Made by a program: the position numbers and the translations under genes. Positions 4,520 to 36,557 of a stretch of DNA of 36,557 nucleotides are shown piece after piece. Source of the DNA: Ignavibacteriota bacterium (GTDB lineage: Bacteria; Bacteroidota; Ignavibacteria; UBA10030; SZUA-254). Under the pieces are notes generated by a model. The model searched no databases. It was not told the origin of the DNA and saw only the letters and a program-made list of their open reading frames with translations. The DNA lies in NCBI GenBank assembly GCA_016209795.1, contig JACQVI010000230.1, positions 1 through 36,557 on the forward strand, given 5' to 3'. Position 1 is the first letter of the stretch, and each line of letters opens with the position of its first letter.

Positions 4520-4543
4520 TGTAACGATTTATTTATTAGCTCC

Positions 4544-4586: not shown

Positions 4587-4591
4587 CATCC

Positions 4592-4620
4592 TTGACTATC
4601 ATAACCTTCTTTGTTACATT
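4592..4620 (+). promoter_or_regulatory. Putative sigma-70-type promoter for the glmM-like operon
   Basis: TTGACT (4592-4597), a 17-base spacer, TACATT (4615-4620). It sits just after the terminator of the preceding gene and about 30 bases before the ATG at 4652, so it could drive the block running towards hslU. Motif match only. Confidence 0.6.
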
Positions 4621-4651
4621 CGTATGGTTATTTCAACTACTTGTACCATCT

Positions 4652-6296: not shown

Positions 6297-6307
6297 GGCT
6301 ATCTCCC

Positions 6308-7420: not shown

Positions 7421-7466
7421 CTTAGGTATTTTTCTCTTTCAGGAAACTTTTGTATTTTACACGTAG

Positions 7467-8045
7467 ATGTTTGTCATAGGTGAAACAGTCATTGAAGATC
7501 ACATTGGCAACGAGCGCTTTGCATGTGATGTTATAAAGTGTAAAGGTGCCTGTTGCACAATGCCCGGTGGACGCGGTGCTCCATTGGAAGATAATGAGCT
7601 TGAAGAACTTGCGCGGGCGTCTCCCTTTGCAAAAAGGTATCTTTCAGAACAGCATCGTAAGGTTATTGAGCGCTCTGGACTGTATGAAGGCTCTTCAGGC
7701 AATCACGCAACAACGTGTGTTGACAACAGGGCTTGCGTATTTGTTTATTATGAAAAGGGATTTGCAAGGTGTTCGCTGGAAAAAGCGTATCTTGATGGTA
7801 AGACATCGTGGCGAAAGCCGCTCTCGTGCCATTTGTTTCCTATTCGTGTTTCTGATGATGGTATGATGTTATTGCGCTTTCGCTCTATTCCTGAGTGTGT
7901 GCCAGCTCTGCAGCGCGGCAGGGAAGAGAATATGCCCCTGTATGAGTTTTTAAAAGATTCGTTGATCAGGAAATTTGGCGATGAATGGTATGATGAATTT
8001 CGAAACGAATGTCAACGACGTAATCAGGTGTTATACGATAAGTAA
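7467..8045 (+). CDS. DUF3109 family cysteine-rich protein
   Basis: A 192-residue cytoplasmic protein of the DUF3109 family, common in Bacteroidota and of unknown function. Conserved cysteines include C20, C25 and the C29-C30 pair near the N-terminus (CDVIKCKGACC), then a Cys in TTCVDNRACVF, one in FARCSLEKAY, one in PLSCHLFPIR and one in IPECVPAL. This pattern resembles YkgJ-like putative metal/Fe-S-binding proteins (a comparison, not a demonstration). The ATG at 7467 lies 46 bases after dprA. No strong Shine-Dalgarno is visible. Confidence 0.85.
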   Translation: MFVIGETVIEDHIGNERFACDVIKCKGACCTMPGGRGAPLEDNELEELARASPFAKRYLSEQHRKVIERSGLYEGSSGNHATTCVDNRACVFVYYEKGFARCSLEKAYLDGKTSWRKPLSCHLFPIRVSDDGMMLLRFRSIPECVPALQRGREENMPLYEFLKDSLIRKFGDEWYDEFRNECQRRNQVLYDK

Positions 8046-8072
8046 CTGATTCTTTCAATGTATTAATACCAA

Positions 8073-9530: not shown

Positions 9531-9548
9531 TCAACAAGTTCATCAATC

Positions 9549-10085
9549 ATGTCTTCGATTATTCATTCTACTACTGTGATTGGTCTTACGCATAACGGGC
9601 AGACTGTCATAGGTGGTGATGGTCAGGTCACTGTTGGCAATGCTGTCATGAAACAAAGCGCGCGGAAGGTACGAAAAATATATAACAACACTGTCCTGGC
9701 TGGTTTTGCAGGTGCTACCGCCGATGCTTTCACGCTCTTCGAGCGATTTGAAGATAAGCTGCAGCAATATCAGGGTAATCTGCTTCGTGCTGCTGTGGAA
9801 CTTGCGAAACACTGGCGCACAGATAAGTACCTTCGCCAACTTGAAGCATTGCTTGCAGTGTTAAATAAAGAACAAGCGTTAGTAATTTCTGGAACGGGTG
9901 AAATCGTCGAACCGGATGACGGCATCATTGCAATTGGTTCAGGTGGAAGTTACGCACTCATTGCTGCGCGTATGTTGAAAAAGCATACTCTCCTTTCAGC
10001 CAAAGAAATCGTTCAGCAATCACTCGAAGCAGCAAGTGATATCTGCATCTATACAAACAAGAACATTGTGCTTGAAGAATTGTAA
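9549..10085 (+). CDS. hslV: ATP-dependent protease proteolytic subunit HslV
   Basis: The peptidase subunit of the HslUV (ClpYQ) protease, 178 residues, related to proteasome beta subunits. The N-terminus has a short propeptide ending in HS, followed by TTVIGL, so Thr8 is the expected catalytic N-terminal threonine after processing. The [22 protein letters not shown] segment and the [14 protein letters not shown] segment are family hallmarks. hslU follows after 8 bases, so the two are co-transcribed. Confidence 0.97.
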
Positions 10086-10093
10086 GAGAATTC

Positions 10094-11488
10094 ATGAATA
10101 AGAAACCTAAGAAAGATTCGATACGAGAATTAACCCCACCAGAGATCGTGCGGGAGTTAGATCGTTACATTATTGGTCAGCAGGCGGCGAAAAAATCTGT
10201 TGCGATAGCGATCAGGAACCGGTGGCGAAGGCTCCAGACCCCTGAAAACATGCGTGAAGAAATCATGCCGAATAACATTATCATGATCGGTCCTACGGGT
10301 GTTGGAAAAACAGAAATTGCCCGGCGCTTGGCGAAGTTAGTCAACGCCCCGTTTATCAAAGTCGAAGCGTCAAAGTTTACCGAAGTCGGGTACGTTGGCA
10401 GAGATGTGGATTCAATGATTCGGGATTTGACCGAGTTTTCTGTGAATATGTTGAAGAATGAGAAGACGAATGAAGTTCAAGATAAAGCAGCGAAACTGGC
10501 TGAAGAGCGAATCCTGGACATCCTTGTTCCACCGCTCAAAAGGAGACAGCCTGTTGAAGCCGGTGTTGGCAATCAAGAAGAACTCTTAGAAAGTGATGAT
10601 AATAAATCGACACGTGAAAGGTTCAGAGAGAAGTTACGTGCTGGTGAGTTAGAAGAACGAACGATTGAAATTGACATTACATCAACTCAAATGCCTGCGA
10701 TGCAAGTCTTCGGTCCGATTAATATCGAAGAAATGGGAGTGAGTATTCAGGAGATGTTTGGCAACATTCTTCCCAAACGTACAAAGAAACGAAAAATGTC
10801 CATCGCAGAAGCTAGAAACGTCCTCATGCAGGAAGAAGCTCAGAAACTCATCGATACAGAAGCGGTGATTAAGGAAGCTTTGCAACGAGTTGAAAACTCC
10901 GGTATCGTCTTTATTGACGAGATTGATAAGATTGCAGGCGAGCGAGGACAAGCCGCAGGACCGGATGTTTCGCGGGAAGGTGTTCAGCGCGATTTATTAC
11001 CGATTGTTGAAGGTACAACAGTGCTGACAAAATATGGTATGGTCAAGACTGACCATATTCTGTTTATGGCATCCGGTGCTTTTCATGTCTCAAAGCCGTC
11101 TGATTTGATTCCGGAACTTCAGGGTCGTTTTCCTATTCGTGTTGAACTGGATAGTTTAACGGAAGAGGACTTTGTCAAAATCTTAACACTGCCTCAAAAT
11201 GCTTTAATCAAGCAGTATACAGCATTGCTTGAGACTGAGGGGGTAACGTTAGAGTTTACGGAGGGTGGCATTCGTGAGATTGCTAGGACCGCTACACAGG
11301 TGAATGAACAAGTAGAAAATATAGGTGCACGCCGTCTTCACACAATCATGACAACGCTCTTGGAAGAAATTTTGTTTGACGCTCCTAATAAGTACAGTGG
11401 GAAAACCATCGTAGTGACGAAAGAGATGGTCAAGGAAAAACTCAGCGACATTGTGAAGAACAAAGATTTGAGTCGCTATATCTTGTAA
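10094..11488 (+). CDS. hslU: ATP-dependent protease ATPase subunit HslU
   Basis: The AAA+ unfoldase that feeds substrates to HslV. The 464 residues contain Walker A GPTGVGKT (66-73), the pore-loop motif GYVGRD soon after, the family's variable intermediate domain (about 115-250), Walker B IVFIDEID near residue 272, and a C-terminal tail DLSRYIL that in this family docks into HslV. It starts 8 bases after hslV. Its stop codon is 3 bases from the convergent DUF3467 gene, with no terminator in between. Confidence 0.97.
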
Positions 11489-11491
11489 GTC

Positions 11492-11818
11492 TTAGTGTAC
11501 TTTATCGCCTGTTGGAAGGGGCTGGAATCCAAATCCACCCGTGGTTGGCTCTCCATGAATCTTAATCTCACCAAAGGTCTTTTCGTACTTTTCGATGTTA
11601 TCTTTGAGAGCATTGAGCAGCAGCTTAGCATGCTGAGGCGTTGTGATGATGCGTGCATGAACCTTTGCTTTTGGTACGCCCGGTAAGACACGTGTAAAAT
11701 CAATAACGAACTCTGCCGGAGAGTGAGTAATGATTGCAAGGTTCGAGTAAATTCCCTCGGCTTCTTTTTCACCAAGCTCGATATTAATTTGTTGTGGAGG
11801 TGACATCTGATTTCCCAT
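11492..11818 (-). CDS. DUF3467 family protein
   Basis: A 108-residue protein of the DUF3467 family, widespread in Bacteroidota and of unknown function. Family features seen are IELGEKEAEGIYSNLAIITHSPAEFVIDF, the VPKAKVHARIITTPQHAK segment and a C-terminal KYEKTFGEI. The start at 11818 (MGNQMSPP) is chosen over a longer frame because AAGGA lies about 8 bases upstream of it. It is downstream of the TPR gene on the same strand (50-base gap), so they are probably co-transcribed. It is convergent with hslU. Confidence 0.85.
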   Translation of the reverse strand: MGNQMSPPQQINIELGEKEAEGIYSNLAIITHSPAEFVIDFTRVLPGVPKAKVHARIITTPQHAKLLLNALKDNIEKYEKTFGEIKIHGEPTTGGFGFQPLPTGDKVH

Positions 11819-11868
11819 AGTCGATTCCTTTTTGCTTTTTGTCAATCGTCTTCAAATATGCTTATTTC

Positions 11869-13032
11869 TTATCTGTTACGGAGTGCATCTGCAGTCTTAA
11901 TAGCTTCCTCAGCTTTTTTCACCATACCGGCATTCGCATAGGCTGTTCCTAATGCTTCCCAAATATCTGGATCATCAGATTTCATGCTGGTGAGTTTTTC
12001 CAAGAGAACAACAGCTTTTTTAAATTTTTCTAAATGTGTTTTGTCTGTAGAGCCTTTCTTAGGATCGGCTTTTGCATCTGCCGCTTCTTTAATCTTTTGA
12101 CCGAGCCTCATATATGTAACCGCACCGTTGCGTAATGCTTCCTGATAAGTACTATCAGCAGCAATTGAGGCGTCGAAATGCGTGATCGCCTCTTCAAGTT
12201 CACCAGTTTCCAGCAACAGGAGTCCGAGATCATTTTGGTACACTTTGTTATTGGGCTCTTTCTCAACCGCTTCTCGAATGTACGGCATCCCATCTTGTGC
12301 ACGCCCTGCCTCAATATGGACATTGATGAGTGTCCCCAATAATTCAGGGTCATTGGGGTTTTCTTTTCTGACCTCTATTAATTCTTTGATCGCAAGATCA
12401 AAATACTCCTCAGCCTGCTGCGTGTTCCCTGCCTTCTTAGCATCCGAGCCTTTTTGGAGATATGCATTAATAAGGTAAGTGACAAATTGAGGATCTTTTT
12501 TCCGTTCCAGTGCTTTCTTCAAATACACAATCTCCTCGTCATAATTTCCATGAGCATGTTGAGCAATTGCCATGTTTTGGTATGTTATAACGCTATCCGA
12601 ATTGATTTCAATTACTAGTTTGTATGAATCAATAGCCTGCTGCCGAAGCATTGCAGCACTATCAGGGGAAGCCTTGACACTTTGATTATAACGATTCACA
12701 CCTTCGTTTAACGCTTGTTGCCAGCCGAACAGCTTCACAACTTTGATTCTTTCTTCATACTCTTTACTGAGCTTTAGTGATGAAGTAACAGCGTCAAGCA
12801 TTCCTCGGTAATTCGCAAGCCGAGCACGTGTGTCCCCTAAAAGATACCATGCTTCGGCGTTGTTAGGATTGTTTTGAATTTCTTTTAATAACGATCGTTC
12901 CGCAGCTTCCCAATCTTGGCGCTGGATATACAATTTTGCACTTGTCATCTCAGATGAACCACATTGGAACCCGGTAAAAGTGAGAGAACAAACAACTATT
13001 ACAAGGAAGATGACGACTAAAGATCGTGCCAT
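11869..13032 (-). CDS. TPR-repeat protein, probable lipoprotein
   Basis: A 387-residue protein with an N-terminal hydrophobic segment (residues 5-19) followed by TGFQC with Cys24, so export and lipid attachment are plausible although the lipobox is not canonical. The rest is a chain of tetratricopeptide repeats (from about residue 33 to the C-terminus), for example WEAAERSLLKEIQNNPNNAEAWYLLGD, EEAITHFDASIAADSTYQEAL and VKKAEEAIKTADALRNR. Such proteins are usually scaffolds for protein complexes; no partner can be named. The start at 13032 is preferred over a longer frame because AGGAG lies 8 bases upstream and the signal sequence begins there. A promoter-like element lies at 13082-13110. Confidence 0.85.
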   Translation of the reverse strand: MARSLVVIFLVIVVCSLTFTGFQCGSSEMTSAKLYIQRQDWEAAERSLLKEIQNNPNNAEAWYLLGDTRARLANYRGMLDAVTSSLKLSKEYEERIKVVKLFGWQQALNEGVNRYNQSVKASPDSAAMLRQQAIDSYKLVIEINSDSVITYQNMAIAQHAHGNYDEEIVYLKKALERKKDPQFVTYLINAYLQKGSDAKKAGNTQQAEEYFDLAIKELIEVRKENPNDPELLGTLINVHIEAGRAQDGMPYIREAVEKEPNNKVYQNDLGLLLLETGELEEAITHFDASIAADSTYQEALRNGAVTYMRLGQKIKEAADAKADPKKGSTDKTHLEKFKKAVVLLEKLTSMKSDDPDIWEALGTAYANAGMVKKAEEAIKTADALRNR

Positions 13033-13081
13033 AAAAATCTCCTGTGAAATGGATTCAGAATAGTATTGGAAAACTGCATGC

Positions 13082-13110
13082 AATATACACAACACTCTGG
13101 AAATAAGCAA
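13082..13110 (-). promoter_or_regulatory. Putative promoter of the TPR-lipoprotein gene
   Basis: On the minus strand: TTGCTT (13110-13105), a 17-base spacer, TATATT (13087-13082), followed by a G. It lies about 50 bases upstream of the start codon at 13032. Motif match only. Confidence 0.5.
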
Positions 13111-13153
13111 CTTAACCGTTCGATACATTCTGTCTGTAGACGCGGTGGTCACG

Positions 13154-13183
13154 TTGACTTTCACAAGGAAATTTTGGTATATT
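13154..13183 (+). promoter_or_regulatory. Putative promoter of the HIT-protein/icd pair
   Basis: TTGACT (13154-13159), an 18-base spacer, TATATT (13178-13183). It lies 25 bases before the ATG at 13209 and diverges from the promoter-like element at 13082-13110. Confidence 0.55.
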
Positions 13184-13208
13184 TTTAAGAACCTATCACT
13201 ATGGATAC

Positions 13209-13661
13209 ATGAAAACAAATCAAGTCATAGAGTGCGAATTCTGTAAGATCATTCGTGGAGAAGCACCTGCTGAAATTCTCTACAAAGATCAACATGTAAT
13301 TGCGATTCTTGATATTAAACCAATTCACTACGGGCATATTCTGGTCATACCACGAACGCACTCAGCGACGTTTCTTGAAGTTCCTGAAGACCAACTCGCT
13401 AATATCATAAAGGTAACAAAGATTGTTTCGGAAGCCCTTGTGGATGCTCTCAAGCCACCTGGGTTTAATATCTTCTCCAACAATGGAAAAGCGGCAGGCC
13501 AGTCGGTTTTTCATTTCCATTTTCATATTACACCTCGATACAGCGATGATAACATACGGTTTGTTCTGAAACTAAAGAAATATCAGAACGATGCAATGGC
13601 ACTGTATGCAAACCGTATTAGACAATGCATCAACTCTCATCACATGCTCGAAGTACACTAA
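13209..13661 (+). CDS. HIT-family nucleotide-binding protein
   Basis: A 150-residue histidine-triad protein, Hint-like. Such enzymes hydrolyse nucleoside phosphoramidates or act on dinucleotides; the substrate here is unknown. It has [10 protein letters not shown] at the N-terminus (the two Cys are potential zinc ligands, as in many bacterial HIT proteins), [16 protein letters not shown], and the catalytic triad HFHFHITPR near residue 105. The next gene, icd, begins 14 bases after the stop codon, so the two are likely co-transcribed. Confidence 0.92.
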
Positions 13662-13675
13662 TCTCTTTACACGAT

Positions 13676-15034
13676 ATGACACCTTTGCAACAACCAAAAC
13701 ACGGAGAAGTGATCACGATCAGTTCACAGCGGCTGAACGTTCCTGATCATCCTATTATTCCATTCATTGAAGGAGACGGTACCGGTCCCGACATCTGGCG
13801 AGCCTCACAAAGGGTGTTTGATGCTGCAGTTCAAAAGGCTTACGGAGGTGAAAGGTCAATCGCATGGATGGAAGTTTTCGCTGGAGAAAAATCGTATAGG
13901 CAATTCAACACATGGTTGCCTGATGAAACGGTTGAATCCTTTCAGAAGTATCTTGTGGGGATCAAAGGTCCACTCACGACACCAGTCGGTGGAGGAATTC
14001 GTTCGCTAAACGTTGCACTACGACAGTTGTTGGATCTCTATGTGTGCTTGAGACCGATAAGGTATTTCCAAGGTGTACCGTCTCCGGTAAAACGCCCTGA
14101 TGCAATCGATATGGTGATCTTCCGTGAGAATACGGAAGATATTTACGCCGGCATTGAATTTCCCGGTGGCAGTCTGGAAGCACAGAAGGTCCTCGAATTC
14201 TTTGCAAAAGAATTTCCCGCCAGTTTCAAAAAGATTCGTTTTGGGACAAAAGATGCAGTGAATGAGTGGTCGAACATGATCGGTAATTCTGTACCTGCAG
14301 ATGGTGATATTCAGGTTGGTGTTGGTTTAAAGCCTGTGTCGTATCAAGGATCAGCGCGCCTCATTCGAGCGGCGATACAGTATGCACTTCAGAACAAAAG
14401 AAAGTCTGTAACGCTTGTCCACAAGGGCAACATCATGAAGTTCACAGAGGGAGCGTTTCGCGATTGGGGATATGCAATGGCAGAAAAAGAGTTCGGCGAT
14501 AAGGTATACACGTGGGCACAGTGGGAAAGAACAAAAAAGAAACAAGGGGAAGATTCCGCAAACGCTGAACAAAAAGCTGCACTTGCCTCGGGAAAAATTT
14601 TGATCAAGGATGCCATTGCTGATATCACACTTCAACAAGTGTTAACTCGTCCAGAAGATTTCGACGTCATTGCAACACTCAATTTGAATGGCGATTATCT
14701 GAGCGATGCTCTTGCAGCGCAGGTTGGTGGAATTGGAATCGCTCCCGGAGGTAATATCAATTTTGTCACCGGCCACGCTGTGTTTGAAGCAACGCATGGC
14801 ACCGCACCGAAGTATGCTAATCTGGATAAAGTTAACCCCGGTTCAGTTATCCTCAGCGGTGAGATGATGCTGCGCTATATGGGTTGGAAAGAAACAGCCG
14901 ACCTTATTATTAAAGGATTAGAGAGAACAATTAAGTCCAAAGTCGTCACGTACGACTTTGCTCGATTAATGCAGGGAGCAAAGGAAGTGAAATGTTCAGA
15001 GTTTGGAAATGAAATCGTGAGAAATATGGATTAA
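13676..15034 (+). CDS. icd: NADP-type isocitrate dehydrogenase
   Basis: This TCA-cycle enzyme oxidatively decarboxylates isocitrate to 2-oxoglutarate. It has 452 residues, longer than the about 416 of E. coli Icd. The substrate loop [13 protein letters not shown] contains the Ser equivalent to the phosphorylated Ser113 of E. coli. Other hallmarks are [50 protein letters not shown] and [19 protein letters not shown]; the HGTAPKY segment is the cofactor-binding loop and fits NADP dependence. The extra length comes partly from a charged insert ([20 protein letters not shown]). The start at 13676 is chosen for homology; no clear Shine-Dalgarno is visible. A terminator follows at 15073. Confidence 0.94.
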
Positions 15035-15072
15035 GAATTTGTTGTTTAGTGCTCTAACCTCATGGAAAAATT

Positions 15073-15116
15073 AAGGGTAATGGAGATCATTGAGGAGCCA
15101 TTACCCTTGTGTTTTT
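15073..15116. terminator. Bidirectional terminator between icd and the DUF1059-like gene
   Basis: A perfect 11-bp stem, AAGGGTAATGG (15073-15083) with CCATTACCCTT (15098-15108), followed by GTGTTTTT on the plus strand. On the minus strand the stem is followed by AATTTTT, so it can serve both convergent genes. Confidence 0.88.
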
Positions 15117-15140
15117 AAAACTTAGAAAGAGATTTGAGAG

Positions 15141-15479
15141 TTATTCCTCTTTCTTCGGTTCTTCCATTTTCTTCTCTTCCTTCTTCATCTCCATCTTCAC
15201 GTCTTTCATCATGCCTTTAACATCTTTTTCTGTCATCTTCATTTGTGGATGATGCTTCTTGGCGTGTTCCATCACCATGGAAGTGAGTTCCTTCTCATCA
15301 TAGCTTCGGATCATGAAGCCGCAGACAGGATTACACTCGACACTCTTCATCATCATCCCTTCTTTCTTCATCTCATCCTTTTTCATTTCTTTCTGCATCG
15401 TCTCTTGAGAGAACACGGCAGAAGAGAATATGAAAACCAGAATAATGGAGAGGACTATACCGAACAAACGTTTAAACAT
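15141..15479 (-). CDS. Small exported Met/Lys/Glu-rich protein with a DUF1059-like domain
   Basis: A 112-residue protein with a signal peptide (residues 1-24, hydrophobic core LFGIVLSIILVFIFSSAVF). The mature part starts with Met/Lys/Glu-rich sequence (MQKEMKKDEMKKEGMMM), then a domain with C49 and C53 (VECNPVCGFMIRSYDEKEL) and HAKKHHPQMKM, and ends in another charged tail. The C-x3-C, E-L and HAKxxH spacing resembles DUF1059, which is normally a small protein without such tails. Metal binding through Met/His/Cys is a possibility only. AAAGGAG lies 9 bases before the start, and a strong promoter-like element at 15549-15577. Confidence 0.75.
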   Translation of the reverse strand: MFKRLFGIVLSIILVFIFSSAVFSQETMQKEMKKDEMKKEGMMMKSVECNPVCGFMIRSYDEKELTSMVMEHAKKHHPQMKMTEKDVKGMMKDVKMEMKKEEKKMEEPKKEE

Positions 15480-15548
15480 AGATAGACTCCTTTCTTAAAA
15501 GTAGCTAATAGATGTGATTTATAACCAGCAGCAACCTTAGGACGTGCT

Positions 15549-15577
15549 ATAATAAAAAATACTAAAATAAAAGTCAA
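15549..15577 (-). promoter_or_regulatory. Putative strong promoter of the DUF1059-like gene
   Basis: On the minus strand: TTGACT (15577-15572), a 17-base AT-rich spacer, TATTAT (15554-15549), giving a leader of about 65 bases. The gap between this gene and the T9SS gene (15480-15716) holds nothing else I can recognise. Confidence 0.65.
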
Positions 15578-15716
15578 GAAAATTATTGTAATTCTAAATT
15601 TATCCTTCTCTCCCCTTTCTTTAAATTGGGACAAGAAGGATTATAAAAGAGGCTGAGTTATCAATGCCTACTTCAAAATCCAAGCCGAGGGGGCTAAATT
15701 AAGCTTATTCATTGGT

Positions 15717-18700
15717 TTATTTGAGGACTAACATTTTCCTCACACTCACATATTTCGTTGCCCTCGTCTCTTTTTCGATCGGTTCTACCACAAGACGGTA
15801 GAAGTAGATTCCACTTGGGATGTCGTCGGCATCCCACTGTACAGACCTTAATCCTGAATCCTGAAACTCCTGTACCAACGTTGTCACTTCTTGTCCCAGC
15901 ATATCATAGACCTTCAGTGTAACCCAACTGGAAACTGGCAGCTGGAACCTGATAACTGTACTCGGATTGAATGGATTTGGGTAGTTTTGGAACAAAGCAA
16001 ATTCTCTGGGCACTTCTGGAATAGAGGCAGGTGAGAGCTTCAAGAAGATTTGGCTATCCAAGTATGAGATTTGAGTTTCTCCACTTCCTTCCAAGTCAAT
16101 CGTACGATCTCTAAGTTGTACGATGAGTCTATTCGAAGGTTGTTTGATCTTCCAGCTCAGTCGCACTGGATACGAAGCTGCTGAAATAATGATAGGCAAC
16201 TCGCCTTGATGTTCATTGAGAACTTCTACCATCCGACCTGACGCAAACCGCACATCAAACATTCCTCTTGGCGGAGGAGGTGGTAACTCATAACGATTGA
16301 GGTCAAGAACTTCAGTTTCGGTAGTGAAATAGAGTATTTGCTTGCAACCTTTACTATCGAAAATACTTAACCTATTAAGCTCGTCAAGTTCATTCTCGGT
16401 TCGAGCAGGTATTTTTGATAGTGAGGCAGATAATACCAAGCTCCCTGAAGCACTCGTTTTAATCCAGTAACCTTTTTTGGGTCTAATTGAATCAGCTGTG
16501 TAGTACCCTGAGTGAAAGCCGTAGTACAGTGACGCCACAATACCGGAAGGAATCTCAGTAATACTATTGACTTCAATTGACTTTGAGATCGACCCGATCA
16601 TATTCCAACCAGGTTGAACTTCAATCGTGTCACTGAGGATCGAGTCGCCTGTGTATAATGTGAACTGTGGTGCAGCGAATTTCAACCAGTAGCCAACACC
16701 ATTGAGCAGCGTATCATGTCGGACATAGGCTCTAGCGTATGTAAACGCTTCGGAAAGAGCTGTGGGGAAAAGGATATTCTTCCGTGAATCGGGCACTGCA
16801 AGGTCGATTGAAAGAAGATTCCATCCTTCAAACACGTCAGGATTCACCATGATGGTAAACACTGAGTCACTTATGTCAACGAGTGATCCACTTTCAGCAT
16901 CGGTGATTCGAATACGACCTTGTGTTGTTGAAATGAATGACACAGACCATGCATATGATGCGGGCGATGCTGGAATCAGGTCGGCAATGAGTGTCCAGTT
17001 AGATCCGTCATCAGTTGAGTATTCTAACTTCACCAGATTCAGGAATTTCTGAGTCCATGTAATTTCTTCAATCAATCCGGCAGCAAGGACTTCGCCGCCA
17101 TTGGGCGATGACAATGCTAAACTCGGAGTTCGAATGAGTTTTCGTTCGTACACTCCATTCCCGAATGTTGAAGCTCTGACAGCATTGTTTGCTCGTGAGA
17201 TCGTAAGATCGAGAACCATTGCTGCTGGCATGCTGTTATTAAATTCTTCCCAGCTTATACCGCCATCGGATGATCGGAAAACACCAAGGTCAGTACCAAC
17301 GTACATATTTTCCGTCTGCTCAGGATCAACGGTGACACATTGGTGTGGGATATCGGGAAGATTTGCCGAAAAGTCGTTCCACGTTAATCCTGCATCGGTT
17401 GTCTTGAACAGATGTGCTGTGCCATATCCTGAATACGTTACATAAGCAATCTTGCTATCTGTTGGATGGAACTTGATATCCGTTGGATATCGGTTGGGCA
17501 GGCTTCCAGTAACATTTGTCCATGTTTGACCGCCATTGATCGATCTGAATATTTCAAAGAGCGATGAAGCCCCCAACGCACCAGTGCCTGTGGCAGCGAG
17601 TACTGTATCTGGATTTGTCCATGAGACTCCTATACAGGCTATGTTCGTACCATTGAGCGTTGCAGCCCCGTTTGATGAGAACCACGATGACCCTCCATTG
17701 GTTGTCTTGTAAACATTTCTTGCACCAGCATACAAGATATTTGGTGAAGAGGGTGAGATGACAAACGGAGGGATAAAATTTGTATTGTTAGAACCGCTTG
17801 GCAGTCCATTATTAATGTTGAAAAAACTATTTCCTCCGTTTGTCGATTTAAAGACCACAAGGTTTTGATGCTCAGCGTACATGATGTTTTTATTCGTCGG
17901 GTCAATAGCACACCAGCCACCGTCGGCACCGAGAACATGTGACCAGATTGGACTTCCGGTATATCTCAACGAGCCATTGTCTTGCAAACCTCCAAGGGCA
18001 ATGGTCGAGTCCGCCGCTGCATTTGCAAAACCCGGATAAAACTGGGTTGTAATGTAACCATTGTTGCAATCAATGAATGTTGAACCGCCATCTGTCGTTT
18101 TATATACACCGCCATCACAGCCAAAATACATCAGGCGAGGATTGGTAGGATGGAAAGCTATCGCATGTTGATCGACATGAACCCTGCCGGACGAGATATT
18201 GCCGAGCGTACCCCCGTCCGACGATTGATAAATGTCAATCCCCCCGCAGTATACTGTATCAGGAGACTCAGGATGAACTGCGACAACATTGTTGTACCAT
18301 CCTTGATTACCAACATAATTCAATGTAGAAACGGCTGACCAACTTAAACCACCATCGGTCGATTTATAAAGTCCGATCATTCCCAAACTTGCACCGCTTG
18401 AAATTCCAGCATACAAAATCGAAGAATTTGACGGTGAGATAGCAAGCGGCGTTCGACCGAAATTTGCAGATGGTAATCCATTAGTCAGTTGGTCCCATGA
18501 CTCACCCGCATCAAGACTCATGTAGATTCCGGGATTGGGCGATGAGTTCAGATTACCGTGAGAAGAATACAGGATAGTTGTATCAGTAGGATGCATCACA
18601 GCATCCATCGCCATCAAGACTGCATTACCTTGATACCATGTAGCACCTGCGTCAATCGATTTGTACACACCTTCACTTGTGGCTGCGAAGAGCGTGCTTG

Positions 18701-29475: not shown

Positions 29476-30582
29476 ATGGCTGAAGAACTCAATAAAGAAG
29501 CCCGATTACAAGCGCTGCGGATCGCTGTTGAACAAATAGAGAAGCAGCACGGCAAAGGTGCCGTAATGAAACTTGGTGAAGGTCCCATTGCAAAAATTGA
29601 TTTCATCTCCACCGGCTCGATCTCGCTCGATTCCGCGATTGGCATTGGCGGAATTCCCCGCGGTCGTGTGACAGAAATCTTCGGACCCGAGGCATCGGGG
29701 AAAACTACGATTTGCTTGCACGTGATTGCAGAAGCTCAACGAAATAATGGTATCGCTGCTTTCATCGATACTGAGCATGCATTAGATATTGGCTATGCGA
29801 AAAAAGTTGGGGTGGATGTGAATAATCTCATGCTTTCTCAGCCAGAGTACGGCGAACAGGCGCTTGAAATCGTTGAGACGCTTGTACGAAGCGGTGCTCT
29901 GGATGTCGTCGTGATTGATTCAGTTGCTGCATTAACACCACGCGCTGAGATCGAAGGCGAGATGGGCGATCCAACGATGGGCGTTCAGGCGCGGCTGATG
30001 TCTCAAGCACTGCGGAAACTAACTGCAGCAATCAGCAAATCGAAAACTTCTGTGATGTTCACCAATCAATTACGGCAAAAAATTGGCGTGATGTTCGGCA
30101 ATCCTGAGACAACAACCGGTGGCAATGCTCTGAAATTCTATGCGTCACTCCGTCTCGATGTTCGCCGCATTGAGGCTATTAAAGATGCACAGAATATCGT
30201 CGGCAATCGAGTAAAGGTAAAAGTCGTCAAGAACAAAGTTGCACCACCGTTCAAAGAAGCGCAGTTCGACATTTTATACAACGAAGGCATCTCAAAATTA
30301 GGCGATATGATCGATACGGCAGTGGAACAGAACATCATCACCAAAAGCGGCTCATGGTTTGCTTACAAAGATGAGCGCATTGGACAGGGTCGCGATGCGG
30401 TCAAAAAATATCTCCAGGAAAACGAGAAGATGACAAAGGAAATCGAGACGGCAGTGCGGAAGAAGTTAGGGTTGCTTGAAGAGAATGGCGAGATGAAGCC
30501 TCAGAAACCTGAAACCCCGATTCCATCGGGGCAAGGCGGGGCAGCCAAACCTGAAGCTGTGAAGAAGCCGGCGAAAGTGTGA
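29476..30582 (+). CDS. recA: Recombinase RecA
   Basis: The DNA-strand-exchange and SOS co-protease ATPase. The 368 residues include Walker [23 protein letters not shown] (Walker B), the L1/L2 DNA-binding loops ([10 protein letters not shown] and [21 protein letters not shown], abbreviated), and KGSWF-like [16 protein letters not shown]. The start at 29476 has AAGGAGA 7 bases upstream. The C-terminal tail ([28 protein letters not shown] region, about residues 341-368) is low-complexity, and its coding DNA contains a CCCCGAT-TCC-ATCGGGG hairpin. I see no obvious LexA-type operator upstream. The last about 125 coding bases recur, diverged, at 31343. Confidence 0.98.
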
Positions 30583-30619
30583 GGCGGAACGTTTATTCAA
30601 GTGAGCAATAAAGAACGTC
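30457..30619 (+). repeat. Left copy of the recA 3'-end direct repeat
   Basis: About 163 bases covering the last 42 codons of recA and about 37 bases beyond the stop codon. The matching copy is at 31343-31505, offset by 886 bases, at roughly 80-85% identity by eye. Many of the differences in the coding part are at third codon positions. Confidence 0.85.
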
Positions 30620-30696
30620 TACGAGAGATAAAAAACGAGCATTTGTACGTTTACAGAGTAATCAGCGGCAATGCACTGAAGTTGCTATATTAGAGT

Positions 30697-30949
30697 GTGG
30701 ACATTATACTGTCTATACATACACAGGATATGTTGAGGGAACGCAACATCCCTGAGGACTGGGTTTGGCGAACAATTTAATAATCCCGAGTGGCAAAATA
30801 TAGGCACGGATAAAAATGTTCACTATTTCAAAGGTATCACTGAAAATGAAAGACAAATTCTGCATGTTGTAGTAAACCCTCATGTTACACCTCAAAAAGT
30901 GGTCACAGTATTTTTTGATCGGAGAGAAAGGAATAAAAATGAGACTTAA
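30697..30949 (+). pseudogene. DUF4258-like protein broken by a frameshift
   Basis: From a GTG at 30697 the frame reads VDIILSIHTQDMLRERNIPE and then DWVWRTI before a TAA at 30778. A +1 change within the TTT run at 30776-30778 moves reading into NNPEWQNIGTDKNVHYFKG and on to VVVNPHVTPQKVVTVFFDRRER, ending at 30949. Joined, the two parts make a normal-sized (about 83 residues) DUF4258-like protein, a family commonly coded upstream of DUF2283 and thought by analogy to be RelE-like. The stop overlaps the DUF2283 start by 11 bases, as expected for the intact pair. A sequencing error is the main alternative to a real mutation. Confidence 0.75.
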
Positions 30950-31139
30950 AATAAGCAAAGAAGATGACGCACTTTATTTCCGGCTAGACGAGTCTTCAAT
31001 CATTGAATCGGAAGAAGTACAGCCTGGCATTGTATTGGATTTTAACACAGAGGGCAAAGTAGTCGGGATTGAAATCCTGAACTTAAGTCAGAGGATGAAA
31101 CCGGAACAACTCAATATTCTCCAATATGAGAGTATATAA
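30939..31139 (+). CDS. DUF2283 family protein (putative antitoxin-like partner)
   Basis: A 66-residue protein of the DUF2283 family: MRLKISKEDDALYFRLDESS, then SEEVQPGIVLDFNTEGKVVGIEIL and LSQRMKPEQL. Family function is not established; pairing with DUF4258 suggests a toxin-antitoxin-like or stress module. The start at 30939 is chosen because AAAGG lies 7 to 8 bases upstream and the family begins there. Confidence 0.85.
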   Translation: MRLKISKEDDALYFRLDESSIIESEEVQPGIVLDFNTEGKVVGIEILNLSQRMKPEQLNILQYESI

Positions 31140-31148
31140 GCCACAGGG

Positions 31149-31246
31149 CGGTTGCGCTAACAAACAGCCTTACAACACTCGCTTTATTGTGGCAAAGCCA
31201 TGCCTCCGGCAAAAAAAGAATTATTGTGCTCGTTGGGTGCAAACCG
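31149..31246 (+). other. attC-like imperfect hairpin (low certainty)
   Basis: Outer arms CGGTTGC (31149-31155) and GCAAACCG (31239-31246). Inside them CGCTAAC (31155-31161) faces GTTGGGT (31232-31238); the latter fits the integron core GTTRRRY, the former is an imperfect RYYYAAC. The length (98 bases) and orientation after the DUF2283 gene fit an integron attC site, but the internal pairing is weak. Confidence 0.25.
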
Positions 31247-31342
31247 ATCTTGACAGCGTTTTTGTGACAAGTTGTGTATCTAGCGGCACGAACCTCTTTG
31301 CCGGGACTTGTGTCTTCAAGGGCGGTATCTTTCGACGAACAA

Positions 31343-31505
31343 CGGCATAAGCTTGGAGTCCTCGAAGAGAACGGACGGATGAAACCGCATAAACCTGAAA
31401 CCTCGATTCCATCGGGGCAAGGCGGGGCAGCCAAACCTGAAGCTGTAAAGAAGCCTGCGAAGGTGTGAGGTGGAACGTTCGTTCAAAGGGAACAATGAAG
31501 AACAT
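31343..31505 (+). pseudogene. Diverged second copy of the recA 3' end
   Basis: The coding part (31343-31468) encodes KLGVLEENGRMKPHKPETS and then [20 protein letters not shown], matching the RecA C-terminus ([19 protein letters not shown], same tail) with several substitutions and many synonymous changes. Similarity continues about 37 bases past the stop codon. Nothing of the rest of recA precedes it: upstream, homology stops at the CGG codon at 31343. With the left copy it brackets the DUF4258/DUF2283 pair. Confidence 0.85.
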
Positions 31506-31518
31506 CCAAAAAGAAAAG

Positions 31519-31569
31519 TAAACGCCATCCCACCCCGATGGATCGGGGCGGGACAGTTTATGGCGTTTA
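31519..31569 (+). repeat. Long hairpin downstream of the recA-end copy
   Basis: TAAACGCCAT (31519-31528) pairs perfectly with ATGGCGTTTA (31560-31569). Inside, CCCaCCCCGAT (31529-31539) pairs with ATCGGGGcGGG (31542-31552). No T-run follows, though the 3' arm itself ends in GTTTA, so it could be a terminator variant or a palindromic repeat. Confidence 0.75.
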
Positions 31570-31663
31570 GCCACCCAAATTGTATATATATGCGACATAG
31601 CTAATTAATACAGTAGATGGTATTGCGCGTTGAGTGCGAATAAAATGAAAGGAGTTTACAGCC

Positions 31664-31861
31664 ATGCCTGATCAGCTTCGCTGTCTGAACTGCGGGTATA
31701 AATGGTTTCCCAAATACCGCAAATCAACTGGGTTGAGAAAATGCCCAAAATGTGGCAAGGTAGGACAATACGATGTGCTAGCATGGTTTCAACAGAATCG
31801 ATGGTTGGGAAGAAAAGGTAGAAAAGCAGGAACAGAAAGAACAGGCTTCACATTTTTTTGA
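31664..31861 (+). CDS. Small zinc-ribbon protein
   Basis: A 65-residue protein with two CxxC knuckles, C8/C11 (RCLNCGYKW) and C29/C32 (KCPKCGKVG), forming a zinc ribbon, and a basic C-terminal half (RWLGRKGRKAGTERTG). AAAGGAG lies about 10 bases before the ATG. It resembles the many small zinc-ribbon proteins of unknown role; nucleic-acid binding is likely from the charge. The DUF2130 gene starts 33 bases later on the same strand, so they probably form an operon. Confidence 0.75.
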   Translation: MPDQLRCLNCGYKWFPKYRKSTGLRKCPKCGKVGQYDVLAWFQQNRWLGRKGRKAGTERTGFTFF

Positions 31862-31894
31862 TCATTCGAACTCTCCATCAGAAGGAGTAAAATC

Positions 31895-33133
31895 ATGGTA
31901 AATCTATTGAAATGCCCAGTCTGTGGAAAACCCTTAACCGAGGTAGAGTATGACAAGGCACTCGGTCTCTGGAAAGATAAACAAGAACACATCAAACACC
32001 TTGAGGCTGAACAGAAGAAGCTAAAGGAACAAGAGCGACTCAACAGGAAAAAACTGGAAGCGGAGCGAAGGAGGATCAGAGAGCAAGAGAAAGCCTACAA
32101 GCAACAAGCAAAGGAACAGGCGAAGGAGTTCAAGAGACAACAGGCGAAACTACTGCGAGACTCCAAGCGTATTCTGACAGAACAGGCCAAGAAATCGACG
32201 CAGCAATTGAAAGACCAAAGAACGCAACTGCAGAAGTCCTTCAATCAAAAGCTAAAATCAGAAATTAAAAAGGGAGTCGAGCAGGGAGTTGAAGAACAAA
32301 AACGGGAATTCAAGAAGCAACAAGCTGATCTCAAGAAGACCAAAAACAAAATGTCACAGCTTGAAAACAGCCTCAAGGTTTCTGCAAAGAAATATGAGCA
32401 GGCAAATGAAGAGATTAAGAAACTGAAGGATCAGATCGAAAAAGGTATCACACCACAAATCGAAGGACTCCTTGAAGAATCTAAGCTTCTTGCAAAACTG
32501 AAAGAATTGTTTCCCAACGACAGATTTGAACACCCCGGCAAAGGTGGCGACATAATTCAGGTTGTAATGGATCACAGCAAAGAAGTAGGTAAAATTGTAT
32601 ATGAATGCAAGAAAGTCAAATCATTCAATAAGAATCACGTTGAGCAAGCGAAGGAAGCTCGGCGATTACGTCAGGCAGATTTCGCTGTCCTCGTAACGAA
32701 TGCCTTTCCCTCGAAGAAGCAATACTATTTCGTGGAGAAGACTGTCTTTGTTATTAGTCCAGTTAGCCTCGAACCAATCACTTACACATTGAGGGAAAGC
32801 TTGGTCAGGATGGCTATTCTCAAGATGACTAATGAGGCAAAGCAGAAAGCTGTTCAGCGAGTTTACGACTATCTCTCAAGTGCAGAATATAACAACAAAA
32901 TGAACGATGTCGCCAATCAACTTATTGACTTGGCGAAAGACCTGAAGCTCGAAATCAAGTCTCACAAAGACAGGTGGGGAAAGCGCTATACCATCTATAG
33001 CAGGCTTTACTCAGATGTTGGGCTGATAGATTTCAAGTTGAAAGGTTTGGTGCAGAACAAGCTCGACGAAAAAGTGAAATTGCTGCCTCCACCCAAAAAA
33101 GACTTTGTTGAGATCGAAGAACTTGGACACTGA
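31895..33133 (+). CDS. DUF2130 protein: coiled coil with a PD-(D/E)XK-like nuclease core
   Basis: A 412-residue protein. The N-terminus has one CPVCGK knuckle (C7, C10). Residues about 25-195 are a very long charged coiled coil (Glu/Lys/Gln/Arg). The C-terminal half matches DUF2130: LFPNDRFEHPGKGGDIIQVV, GKIVYECKKVKSFNKNHVEQ, ADFAVLVTNAFPS and KDRWGKRYTIYSRLYSDVGLI. D219 and E237-x-K239 have the spacing of a PD-(D/E)XK nuclease core, and Q222 could be the extra conserved Gln of such folds. Structural analogy suggests DNA cleavage, but activity is inferred. GGAG lies upstream of the ATG. It is flanked by a zinc-ribbon gene and a GIY-YIG gene. Confidence 0.82.
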   Translation: MVNLLKCPVCGKPLTEVEYDKALGLWKDKQEHIKHLEAEQKKLKEQERLNRKKLEAERRRIREQEKAYKQQAKEQAKEFKRQQAKLLRDSKRILTEQAKKSTQQLKDQRTQLQKSFNQKLKSEIKKGVEQGVEEQKREFKKQQADLKKTKNKMSQLENSLKVSAKKYEQANEEIKKLKDQIEKGITPQIEGLLEESKLLAKLKELFPNDRFEHPGKGGDIIQVVMDHSKEVGKIVYECKKVKSFNKNHVEQAKEARRLRQADFAVLVTNAFPSKKQYYFVEKTVFVISPVSLEPITYTLRESLVRMAILKMTNEAKQKAVQRVYDYLSSAEYNNKMNDVANQLIDLAKDLKLEIKSHKDRWGKRYTIYSRLYSDVGLIDFKLKGLVQNKLDEKVKLLPPPKKDFVEIEELGH

Positions 33134-33371
33134 TGTCACCACGGCACATAATAAGAGCTAATGGTTCTTGATGTGAAGGCTTGGGGGTTTTACACATGAC
33201 GCAGGCCTTTGTCGTCGCAGGAAGGCTCCCCCAAGTATCTTTTGTTTGGCCGACCTGCTATCAATGCCTCTACCTTTCACAAAACGAGGTATCTGTGAGC
33301 CCTCGCAGATCAGAACAAAGGCAGAGGGCACTTGTTTATTTCCAAGATATCGGCCTTCTCAAAAGCAGAGT
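33134..33371. other. Gap before the GIY-YIG gene, no gene recognised
   Basis: The 238 bases between the DUF2130 stop and the preferred GIY-YIG start hold no recognisable promoter, terminator or RNA. The GIY-YIG frame stays open upstream to a TTG at 33246 (with an ATG at 33264), so part of this gap may be coding if the real start is earlier. Confidence 0.4.
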
Positions 33372-33938
33372 ATGGAATCAGACAGCATTTCATTTTCGCG
33401 ATTATTCGACTACATAAAGAGCCACCCTGAGATTCCGCATAAAGAAGAACCATCATTCAGTGGATTCCAGGACTTATATCTGCAACTTGTTCGAAACGTT
33501 CCATACATCCCCGGATGGTACGCTTGGACCAACAAGTTTCTTCCACAAGAGCAACGGGTGATTTACATAGGACAGTCTCAGACTCGAAAGACGTCTTCAC
33601 TTAATGCTCGATTGAAAGAGGAGTTCTTAGATGAATTTGTTGCATTGTGGGCATCAGTCTGGAATCCAGACGAAGTTGTGAATACGCTTGACCGTAAATA
33701 CCGAGGGAAGTACACTGCGCCTATCAAGCGATCAGCACGAAAAGCAGGAGCAACTCACATCGTCTGGTTCGGGAAGAGAGGTTTGTCCGATCAAGAGCTT
33801 GATGTAGTCGAACATGCTTTGATAGCTAAATACAATCCACCTGCAAACAAGCAGTCTCGCACTCATTCAACTTCCTTTTCGGATCTACTAAACGAGGCTG
33901 AATCCGCTCTTCAGTCTGAACTTTCAAAGCTGGCTTAG
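33372..33938 (+). CDS. GIY-YIG endonuclease-fold protein
   Basis: 188 residues from the ATG at 33372 (MESDSISFSR). All GIY-YIG landmarks are present: G48-W-Y50 (PGWYAW), Y65-I-G67 (VIYIGQSQ), the catalytic Arg R80 (LNARLKEEF), the metal-binding Glu E147 (DVVEHALIAKY) and the conserved Asn N159 (YNPPANK). The fold cuts DNA in homing endonucleases, UvrC and some restriction enzymes; the target here is unknown. The frame extends upstream to 33246, so up to 42 more residues are possible; the shorter form is preferred because the upstream part lacks family features. It sits after the DUF2130 gene and 27 bases before an unknown gene. Confidence 0.85.
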   Translation: MESDSISFSRLFDYIKSHPEIPHKEEPSFSGFQDLYLQLVRNVPYIPGWYAWTNKFLPQEQRVIYIGQSQTRKTSSLNARLKEEFLDEFVALWASVWNPDEVVNTLDRKYRGKYTAPIKRSARKAGATHIVWFGKRGLSDQELDVVEHALIAKYNPPANKQSRTHSTSFSDLLNEAESALQSELSKLA

Positions 33939-33965
33939 AAGCACGCAAGGTCATCAAAGAACCTT

Positions 33966-34415
33966 ATGATTGAAAAGGACGAAATACCAATTGACGCAGT
34001 AAGGCCAACGGATGTACAGAGGGTCTTTTTGAAGCGCATAGTCAAAGAGACGACCGAATATGCCCGCTCAAAGAATCACAGTGATATGTATTTCCAGGGT
34101 CACAGTGACCAAACATACTTCGGTGCATATTCAACGAAGATCATCCGACGTGGTGCTGGTCGATTCGTCTTCGGTTTCGACAGAAGGTCAGGCAAGCTCC
34201 GTATGGCTATTCCAATAGGAATCTCTGAGCCATACAGACTTGCGAAGTCTTGGACAGGCGATCCATCGAGAAACCGAGCTGTCATTGAGATTGGCAATGA
34301 CCTGAGTGAAGAGATGCAGCTCTATTTCATTGAGATGGGAAAGCGCAGTATCGACTTTCACTACGAGGGTAGGTTACGTGGCGCTGCGGCTAACAGAACC
34401 TATATTGAAAGATGA
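33966..34415 (+). CDS. Unrecognised protein next to the GIY-YIG gene
   Basis: A 149-residue soluble protein that I cannot place in a family. It has no signal peptide or membrane segment. It begins with charged sequence (MIEKDEIPIDAVRPTDVQRV), has a central SDMYFQGHSDQTYFGAYSTK segment, then a strand-rich, Arg/Gly-containing part (RRGAGRFVFGFDRRSGKLRM, IPIGISEPYRLAKSW) and ends EEMQLYFIEMGKRSIDFHYE plus a short tail. The ATG is 27 bases after the GIY-YIG stop, so co-transcription is likely. Confidence 0.6.
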   Translation: MIEKDEIPIDAVRPTDVQRVFLKRIVKETTEYARSKNHSDMYFQGHSDQTYFGAYSTKIIRRGAGRFVFGFDRRSGKLRMAIPIGISEPYRLAKSWTGDPSRNRAVIEIGNDLSEEMQLYFIEMGKRSIDFHYEGRLRGAAANRTYIER

Positions 34416-34484
34416 GATGTCAAAAATTAATAATTCAGCCCTCATGAAGAGGGGAAACTTACACTCTAAACCGATGAGGTTACT

Positions 34485-35705
34485 ATGAAATATACAAACA
34501 TTATCTGTCTCTCTGTGCTCTTGTGCTTTCTCTGCTTGCCGTCAGGTATCATCGCTCAAGAGTCGAAGTACTTATTTATCTGGGCGGGTCATCAGGATCG
34601 TCAAGCGCCAGATTTCTTGTCTGTAGTAGATTTTGATCAAACTTCAAAAGACTACGGCAAGGTTATGACAACAGTTCCTCTTGACACCCCCGGGCATACC
34701 TGGAATGAACCACATCACGTGGGACTTTCGGCTGATGGAAACATATTGGCTTGCGGAGGATTGTTGAGCGTCTTAAAAGGACAGAAAGAAGTCTTCTTCT
34801 TCGATGTATCCGATCCTCGTAAGCCCAAGCTTCTCTCCTCTGCCGATCCGCCTCAATCCGCCATTACGGATGAGTTCTATGCCTTAGACAACGGAGGCTT
34901 CCTCGTCACGATGATGGGAGGTGCGCAAGGGCATCATCCAGGACGAGTAGCTGAGTTCGATAAAAATCTCAACCTTGTCGCTGAATATCCCTCAGACCCT
35001 CCGCAGGATGGCTTTAATCCTCATGGCATTTCAGTCCGACCGGAGATTAATCTGATGGTGACCAGCGATTTCATCTGTCCTTCCACGACCTTACATGCAG
35101 TTCCCGGTGACATGGGGTTCAGAGGCAGCGCACGGGTTTGGGACTTCAAAAAGAGAAGCATACTCCGCACGATTACTCTGCCAACTGCAGCAGGAACCAT
35201 CGACGTTCGTCTGATTCCCAACGATCGCAAACAGCGCGGGTACACGGCGGGGATGCTCGATGGAAAACTCTATTTGCTTGACACGAAAGCCGGCACAGCG
35301 AAAGACGTTTTCGATTTCTCTACGATTGCCAAAGACGGTTGGCCCCAGTTGATGCGCATGACTCGAGACGGAAAAAGATTGTTTGTTTCTATGAATATGG
35401 CTGGTAAGGTGGTTATGTTCAATACCGCCGATCCTGAAAAACCGAGCGTCGTGAAAGTTTTAGACCTTGGAAAGGATTCCGGACCTCACTATCTTGCACT
35501 GACAAAGGATGAAAAAAGACTGGTCATCACAGACTATTTCTTGAATGAAGACGATAAAGGAAAGGTTCACGCCGAGGGGGATCACAAAATCCATGTAGCC
35601 AAGGTCAGCAAGAATGATCTGGTCTTAGACACAAAATTCAGCTTAGATTTTAATACTGCCCTCGCGGATGGACCAGCCCGTCCACACGGAGTAGCGTTTA
35701 AATGA
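34485..35705 (+). CDS. Exported SBP56/methanethiol-oxidase-like beta-propeller protein
   Basis: 406 residues with a signal peptide (about 1-25, ending IIAQES). The mature protein looks like a distant member of the selenium-binding-protein-56 family, which includes methanethiol oxidase: PDFLSVVDFDQTSKDYGKV, EPHHVGLSADGNILACGG, FDVSDPRKPKLLSS, FNPHGISVRPEINLMVTSDF, GPHYLALTKDEKRLVITDYF and the end RPHGVAFK. The recurring His (EPHH, NPHG, GPHY, RPHG) fit metal ligands of such propellers. In methanethiol oxidases copper is bound and methanethiol is oxidised in the periplasm; whether this protein does so is inference. GAGG lies shortly before the ATG. Confidence 0.75.
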   Translation: MKYTNIICLSVLLCFLCLPSGIIAQESKYLFIWAGHQDRQAPDFLSVVDFDQTSKDYGKVMTTVPLDTPGHTWNEPHHVGLSADGNILACGGLLSVLKGQKEVFFFDVSDPRKPKLLSSADPPQSAITDEFYALDNGGFLVTMMGGAQGHHPGRVAEFDKNLNLVAEYPSDPPQDGFNPHGISVRPEINLMVTSDFICPSTTLHAVPGDMGFRGSARVWDFKKRSILRTITLPTAAGTIDVRLIPNDRKQRGYTAGMLDGKLYLLDTKAGTAKDVFDFSTIAKDGWPQLMRMTRDGKRLFVSMNMAGKVVMFNTADPEKPSVVKVLDLGKDSGPHYLALTKDEKRLVITDYFLNEDDKGKVHAEGDHKIHVAKVSKNDLVLDTKFSLDFNTALADGPARPHGVAFK

Positions 35706-35733
35706 GAAGTTGTAAATCAGAAGCCAAGTCGCT

Positions 35734-35826
35734 CGGCTAATTTCAGGAGTACGGAAAATGTGTACTCCCTGATGAGCCGTCTACGATCCAAGAGGACCGA
35801 TAGATCCGTTGGTACCCCGTTAGGCG
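35734..35826 (+). other. Structured intergenic element with a strong hairpin, attC-like at its ends
   Basis: CAGGAGTAC (35744-35752) pairs with GTACTCCcTG (35762-35771, one bulged C), and CGGCT (35734-35738) with AGCCG (35775-35779). Alternatively GGCTAA near the left end faces TTAGGC within GTTAGGC (35819-35825), with GGAGTAC facing GGTACCCC, the layout of an integron attC site. There is no T-run. It lies between the SBP56-like gene and the PIN gene. Confidence 0.4.
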
Positions 35827-35841
35827 AAAGCACAAGATATT

Positions 35842-35871
35842 TTGTAAATTGTTGTACAACGCAGGCATAAT
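35842..35871 (+). promoter_or_regulatory. Weak promoter/operator candidate for the PIN gene pair
   Basis: TTGTAA (35842-35847), an 18-base spacer, CATAAT (35866-35871). The spacer contains a perfect palindrome GTTGTACAAC (35851-35860), which could be an autoregulatory operator. Inference from motif only. Confidence 0.35.
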
Positions 35872-35891
35872 TGCTCAAGGACCTGTAATCA

Positions 35892-36356
35892 ATGAAACGA
35901 CACCGTATATATTGTGATTCCTCCGTAATTGGAGGATATTTCGATCCTGAATTCGAGATGGATTCTCAACGGTTCATCGATGCTGTTAAAAAGGGTCAAA
36001 TCGTAATGCTGGTGAGCGAAGTAGTTGTGGAAGAGATTCTCCAGGCTCCTGAGGATGTTCAGAACCTACTTGCTTCAATCCCTACATCTTCCGTTGAAAG
36101 AGTACCATTGAGCGAAGAGGTTATCGAACTGAGGAATGCCTACATTGGCGCAGGGATTCTTGGAGCGAAGTGGATCGATGACGCGACACACGTTGCTGCT
36201 GCGACCGTTGCCCGTGCCGATGCCATTGTCTCTTGGAACTTTGCCCACATTGTGCGGCTTGACAAGATGAAAGCCTACAACCAAGTCAATCTTATCAACG
36301 GATACGGAATTCTCACAATTATTTCTCCCAGAGAGGTACACTATGACGACACATAA
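35892..36356 (+). CDS. PIN-domain toxin-like nuclease
   Basis: A 154-residue PIN-domain protein. The N-terminal strand RIYCDSSVIGGYFD carries D9, the first acidic metal ligand. LVSEVVVEEILQAPEDVQNL supplies a conserved Glu, and IDDATHVAAATVARADAIVSWNFAHIV the further Asp residues typical of the fold. PIN toxins such as VapC cleave RNA; the target here is unknown. Its 3' end overlaps the next small gene by 14 bases, the usual layout for coupled pairs, but with the toxin gene first. Confidence 0.82.
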   Translation: MKRHRIYCDSSVIGGYFDPEFEMDSQRFIDAVKKGQIVMLVSEVVVEEILQAPEDVQNLLASIPTSSVERVPLSEEVIELRNAYIGAGILGAKWIDDATHVAAATVARADAIVSWNFAHIVRLDKMKAYNQVNLINGYGILTIISPREVHYDDT

Positions 36357-36537
36357 GAAAAAAGATTTTGATTGTATTGAGATCAAGCGTGATGCTCAAA
36401 GCAAGATTTACGAAGCCATCAAACAGATGACTCCCGAGGAAGAGATTGCTTACTTTAGGAAGTCTGTCGATAACAGTAAGCTTTCCAAGTGGTGGAAGTC
36501 TGTTCCGTCACGCGTTGAGCTCTCTAAAACGCAATGA
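36343..36537 (+). CDS. Small partner of the PIN-domain protein (putative antitoxin)
   Basis: A 64-residue protein, basic at the N-terminus (MTTHKKKDFDCIEIKRDAQSK), with a helical middle (IYEAIKQMTPEEEIAYFRKS) and a WWKSVP motif near the end. I recognise the general type found directly after such PIN genes but cannot name the family. An antitoxin role is inferred from the overlap with the PIN gene only. Confidence 0.6.
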   Translation: MTTHKKKDFDCIEIKRDAQSKIYEAIKQMTPEEEIAYFRKSVDNSKLSKWWKSVPSRVELSKTQ

Positions 36538-36557
36538 GTTTGCGCCACAAACAGGAC

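Follow-up and report, generated by a model that had tools for sequence, protein, structure and literature searches.

The window analysed here, a 36,557-nt stretch of DNA from an Ignavibacteriota bacterium, carries four genes downstream of recA, all on the plus strand, which encode a zinc-ribbon protein, a DUF2130 protein, a GIY-YIG protein and a further protein that we term ORF4 (Table 1). The spacers between them measure 33 nt (zinc ribbon to DUF2130), 238 nt (DUF2130 to GIY-YIG) and 27 nt (GIY-YIG to ORF4), and by this spacing the four genes are not one tight operon; we refer to the first pair as unit A and to the second as unit B. The widest spacer holds an imperfect palindrome that is unique in the window, with zero occurrences expected in shuffled sequence. 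When the window proteins were compared with the PADLOC 2.0.0 profiles, the DUF2130 protein drew only coiled-coil matches (LmuB and similar), and the GIY-YIG protein and ORF4 drew none. As the preliminary description had surmised, no named system with this set of genes came up in PADLOC or in the literature searched.

Table 1. Features at and around the four genes (positions in the window).
Feature	Positions	Strand	Remarks
recA, left border of the insertion	29476..30582	+	recX is the next gene in 14/14 other family genomes
Accessory insertion in the recA/recX interval	30583..36557, runs to contig end	.	recA-recX synteny broken
Second copy of the recA 3' end	31343..31486	+	85% identical to 30457-30600
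Unit A gene 1, 65-aa zinc-ribbon protein	31664..31861	+	two CxxC knuckles
Unit A gene 2, 412-aa divergent DUF2130 protein	31895..33133	+	PF09903; D219, E237, K239
Imperfect palindrome CTTGGGGG...CCCCCAAG	33180..33235	.	between units A and B
Unit B gene 1, 188-aa GIY-YIG nuclease (predicted)	33372..33938	+	73% identical to L020:6001-6561
Unit B gene 2, 149-aa ORF4	33966..34415	+	66% identical to L020:6575-7000; possible double-wing DNA-binding fold

All four genes lie in a stretch that is an accessory insertion separating recA from recX, which bears out the accessory character ascribed to the region earlier. In every other genome of the family (14 of 14) recX directly follows recA, and this adjacency is broken in the window genome only, where other genes occupy 6 kb or more downstream of recA and recX sits on another contig, near its start (G000:C22:963). 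The 3' end of recA is present again inside the insertion, covering residues 328-368 at 88% identity, and is a scar left by an older rearrangement. An ORF of the DUF2283 family (30882-31139) is situated between the two recA 3' ends, and at the contig end (35892-36537) a PIN-domain ORF overlaps with a small ORF that follows it, and the two may form a toxin-antitoxin pair. Unlike type II restriction-modification (R-M) systems, in which the cognate methyltransferase adjoins the nuclease, the insertion features no methyltransferase among its ORFs at 30583-36557.

The first gene of unit A was correctly called as a zinc-ribbon gene in the preliminary description, although all Pfam-type matches of its product to zinc-ribbon families fall under their cut-offs. 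Its closest counterpart, at 61% identity, likewise lies upstream of a DUF2130 gene in another member of the family (G009), and across the 391 genomes of the class that were searched we recovered nothing beyond this gene and the window copy. The second protein is, as judged from sequence, a member of the DUF2130 family (PF09903, 79.6 bits, E 3e-22, against a cut-off of 26.7) with a PD-(D/E)XK pattern, and the D219/E237-x-K239 residues proposed earlier proved invariant in all 12 aligned DUF2130 sequences. It displays an N-terminal CPVCG knuckle, a long coiled coil and a C-terminal PD-(D/E)XK domain, and thereby shares with the wider family (PF09903/COG4487) the CPxCG knuckle, the coiled coil and the G-D...E-x-K core. 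It departs from canonical members in that ECKK replaces ESKRTK, a GLWK motif follows the knuckle and a zinc-ribbon gene lies upstream.

The zinc-ribbon gene and the closest DUF2130 gene occur in the same order in G009 (61% and 62% identity), where they are preceded by genes for a methyltransferase and a STAS protein instead of by recA. Unit A is hence known from two places, the window and G009, the latter being partial as its contig ends inside the DUF2130 gene. DUF2130 genes were detected in 17 of the 100 relatives searched and DUF2130 is therefore not core, contrary to one outcome that the preliminary description had allowed for. The flanks of 11 other DUF2130 loci show no homologue of the zinc ribbon, GIY-YIG or ORF4 alongside, so that the joint conservation by which the four-gene set was to be judged was not encountered there. 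Canonical DUF2130 loci have varying neighbors. At one of these, in G089 (L061 2524-9810), an HmaC-like DUF499 ATPase gene immediately precedes the DUF2130 gene, and a cyclase of the SMODS (CBASS) type lies two genes beyond; this locus is evidence that members of the family may occur in defence neighborhoods, but of nothing more. The literature consulted gives no function for DUF2130, and this widespread family without an assigned function gains here a divergent, zinc-ribbon-linked lineage for testing.

Turning to unit B, the GIY-YIG gene had been given a start at TTG 33246, which is too early: its homologue in an Ignavibacteriae metagenome-assembled genome (MAG; L020:6001) begins at the residue encoded by ATG 33372, and the protein therefore comprises 188 aa. 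Its motifs, on the other hand, agree with the earlier reading and comprise a GWY with Y50, Y65-I-G67, R80, E147 and N159; with these tyrosines, the catalytic arginine and glutamate and the late asparagine, we predict a GIY-YIG nuclease. All these residues are kept in L020, and Y50 and R80 are present in five of five relatives, with E147 not kept in L072 and L073. The match to PF20815 (GIY_YIG_2; 20.1 bits, E 6.5e-4) lies below the curated cut-off of 22.4, and the structure model reaches a pLDDT of 37.5, and therefore the fold assignment rests on the motifs and sub-threshold matches. By their sequence patterns, both of the nuclease folds previously named, PD-(D/E)XK in DUF2130 and GIY-YIG, are represented in the set. 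Distant GIY-YIG proteins (24-25% identical) stand alone in three genomes; those in L072 and L073 have ordinary neighborhoods, beside or near transketolase. One distant stand-alone gene, in another member of the family (L074, 7342-7929), lies about 6 kb downstream of recA. No GIY-YIG homologue was detected among 296 genomes of the phylum outside the window genome, nor in plasmids, phages or viral contigs. The gap upstream of the gene was also considered as a site of likeness to L020, for example as a broken methyltransferase, and this was ruled out as there is no similarity.

ORF4 had been described as lacking a recognised family, and it indeed retrieves no meaningful match from Pfam, NCBIfam, PADLOC or PHROG. 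It was found in the window genome only among 395 genomes of the phylum, in G380 only among 390 relatives of G380, and in none of the plasmids or viral contigs; a PDB sequence search with profiles of GIY-YIG and ORF4 likewise returned nothing. Its central block, SDQTYFGAYSTKIIRRGAG, is identical between the homologues. The structure model (pLDDT 61, pTM 0.63) consists of a helix, a beta meander and a helix, and its top structural match is the T4 MotA DNA-binding domain (Z 6.2 over 99 residues, 3.3 Å, 7% identity), a score within the range of common background; frataxins and type III secretion chaperones, which have a similar topology, are also among its neighbors. Foldseek gave no significant match with this model; against viral models, a DUF5655 protein had the highest probability among the matches listed (0.75, E 0.16), which also include MotA, and the literature searched makes no mention of DUF5655. 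A double-wing DNA-binding fold for ORF4 may thus be taken as a weak lead only, its scores lying within background.

The GIY-YIG and ORF4 genes recur together in the same Ignavibacteriae MAG (L020/L071), at the identities given in Table 1, in a fixed order and with a gap of 13-27 nt across the window and the homologue; unit B is known from these two places. The contig L071 (18.5 kb, 1-18525) bears alternating repeat ends, GCCTAAC-CAGGCGCTCAAGC and GCTTAGCGCCGGTCC-GTTAGGC, with at least 15 per class, and essentially all its genes lie on one strand. The repeats are attC-like with R''/R' boxes, span about 150-215 bp where intact (not cut by N) and bound 15 cassettes. An integron cassette opens with the complement of its own R'' flank, since the site was intact while the cassette was a free circle. 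All 15 of the 15 cassettes in L071 follow this rule: the reverse complement of a cassette's own R'' flank reappears immediately after R', over a mean shared prefix of 13.7 nt, compared with 5.7 nt when cassettes are mismatched. The GIY-YIG and ORF4 genes make up exactly one of these cassettes (L071:3090-4117, 1.03 kb), with a 14-nt match. From its attC flanks and its own complementary end, the L071 homologue of unit B thus qualifies as an integron gene cassette. The array shares with chromosomal integron arrays the attC-like repeats with R''/R', the unidirectional genes and the cassette starts complementary to their own R'', and differs from the usual ones in its longer repeats (150-215 bp) and in that no integrase is seen on the 18.5-kb contig. 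GIY-YIG cassettes have been noted in integrons before, as with orf6 of Aeromonas (PMC10609294). Unlike the cassette, the window copy of unit B has no recognisable attC: neither an attC-like pair nor a repeat of the L071 type, nor any convincing remnant of one, was found in the window. The 3' end of ORF4 (34380-34420, CGTGGCGCTGCGGCTAAC) is faintly like the L071 cassette end (CGTGGCACCTAAC), and is perhaps a decayed attC half.

Between the window and L020/L071, identities at codon positions 1/2/3 are 0.74/0.89/0.42 for GIY-YIG and 0.74/0.83/0.37 for ORF4; with positions 1 and 2 conserved and position 3 saturated, both are real functional genes under purifying selection. The adjoining L071 cassette, of 3.8 kb, encodes a methyltransferase, a XhoI-type restriction endonuclease (E 2e-91) and an AIPR (AbiU-like) protein. 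Because these R-M genes belong to a separate cassette, in which the methyltransferase is paired with its own endonuclease, their proximity is a property of the array, whereas the GIY-YIG/ORF4 link is physical. This XhoI/PaeR7I-type system with AIPR is accordingly a neighbor of unit B and not a part of it. The XhoI-type endonuclease had no match elsewhere in the window genome, in a search whose control was uninformative. A general association of PaeR7I-family loci with the GIY-YIG pair was also considered and set aside, the pair being absent at both plasmid loci examined.

Among studied GIY-YIG enzymes of defence, CMoRE (PD-T4-3), a type IV restriction enzyme (PMC12923530), comes nearest. As we read unit B, both would rely on a small GIY-YIG nuclease of the defence type, itself dependent on a part that senses DNA. 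In CMoRE, however, the GIYxY-YIG motif and the C-terminal sensing domain are fused in a single protein (PMC12923530), whereas unit B has a GWYAW...YIG motif in a 188-aa single-domain protein with a separate partner, and it is therefore not a CMoRE. The double-wing DNA-binding fold that ORF4 weakly resembles is found in T4 MotA (PMC6755090) and in a GIY-YIG-MmcQ/YjbR-EVE fusion (PMC7641849); from the latter, unit B differs in having no EVE domain, no fusion and a weak fold match. The GIY-YIG and ORF4 pair seems to be undescribed in the literature searched.

The explanation that we favor, and hold to be moderately probable, is that two independently inherited two-gene units lie side by side at recA, with unit B being likeliest a restriction-type nuclease; most of this confidence comes from the division into two units, for which the evidence is stronger than for the mechanism. 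The two-unit reading is supported by the recurrence of GIY-YIG and ORF4 in a genome where the window DUF2130 query finds no match, even though the same query detects DUF2130 proteins of 24-26% identity in other genomes, and by that of unit A at another location in G009, its gene order retained. The same observations bear on the single defence system put forward in the preliminary description, in which two nucleases, a coiled-coil sensor and a zinc-binding partner would act together. The shared strand of all four genes speaks for it, as does the circumstance that the only other zinc-ribbon and DUF2130 locus (G009) breaks off at a contig end inside DUF2130. However, in a genome in which no DUF2130 was detected, GIY-YIG and ORF4 make up a cassette by themselves; the two pairs are parted by 238 nt that include a palindrome, and the other DUF2130 loci examined lack the remaining genes. 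We regard a single four-gene system as very improbable.

Two further explanations concern what the units do. Unit B could be a toxin-antitoxin-like stabilising cassette, with GIY-YIG as the toxin and ORF4 as its inhibitor, that holds arrays or islands in place. Toxin-antitoxin cassettes are frequent in large integron arrays, and such a role would suit two genes that keep their order within one cassette, only 13-27 nt apart, as well as the unaltered central block of ORF4 across homologues; against it, ORF4 matches no antitoxin family, the toxin-first order is the less usual one and the weak fold hints, such as they are, point to DNA binding, leaving this explanation unlikely, though second in rank to the restriction reading. 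We consider it unlikely, too, that the pairs are unrelated passing genes, namely nucleases of housekeeping or repair with no part in defence: the distant stand-alone GIY-YIG genes near transketolase (L072, L073) and the varied company of canonical DUF2130 genes would suit this, but the patchy distribution, the cassette mobility and the insertion at recA argue for accessory roles.

As to the mechanism, we posit, at slightly less than an even chance, that unit B is a nuclease of the restriction type whose DNA-binding partner is a separate protein. The GIY-YIG protein would cut DNA, and ORF4, presumably translated from the same message, would supply DNA binding and with it the choice of target or the licence to cut. 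Unit A would constitute a second nuclease pair, whose DUF2130 protein, with a PD-(D/E)XK core where the coiled coil ends, probably acts on DNA as well. Points for a defence role are the neighboring L071 cassette with its R-M genes and AIPR/AbiU-like protein and the canonical DUF2130 gene of G089 near a CBASS-type cyclase, although an R-M cassette adjoining in an array says little about the function of unit B. A bolder and rather improbable version would make unit B an undescribed restriction system of two genes, borne by integrons and lacking a methyltransferase, with a separate double-wing protein that recognises phage DNA, perhaps modified, and directs the GIY-YIG nuclease to it.

What takes the place of a doubtful four-gene system is less extensive and open to experiment, namely a GIY-YIG cassette of two genes and 1.03 kb that is mobile as a whole. 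Should it turn out to serve restriction, its sensing and cutting parts could be studied apart from each other, and Ignavibacteria would harbor in their integron arrays a compact pair of nuclease and recogniser absent from present defence libraries.
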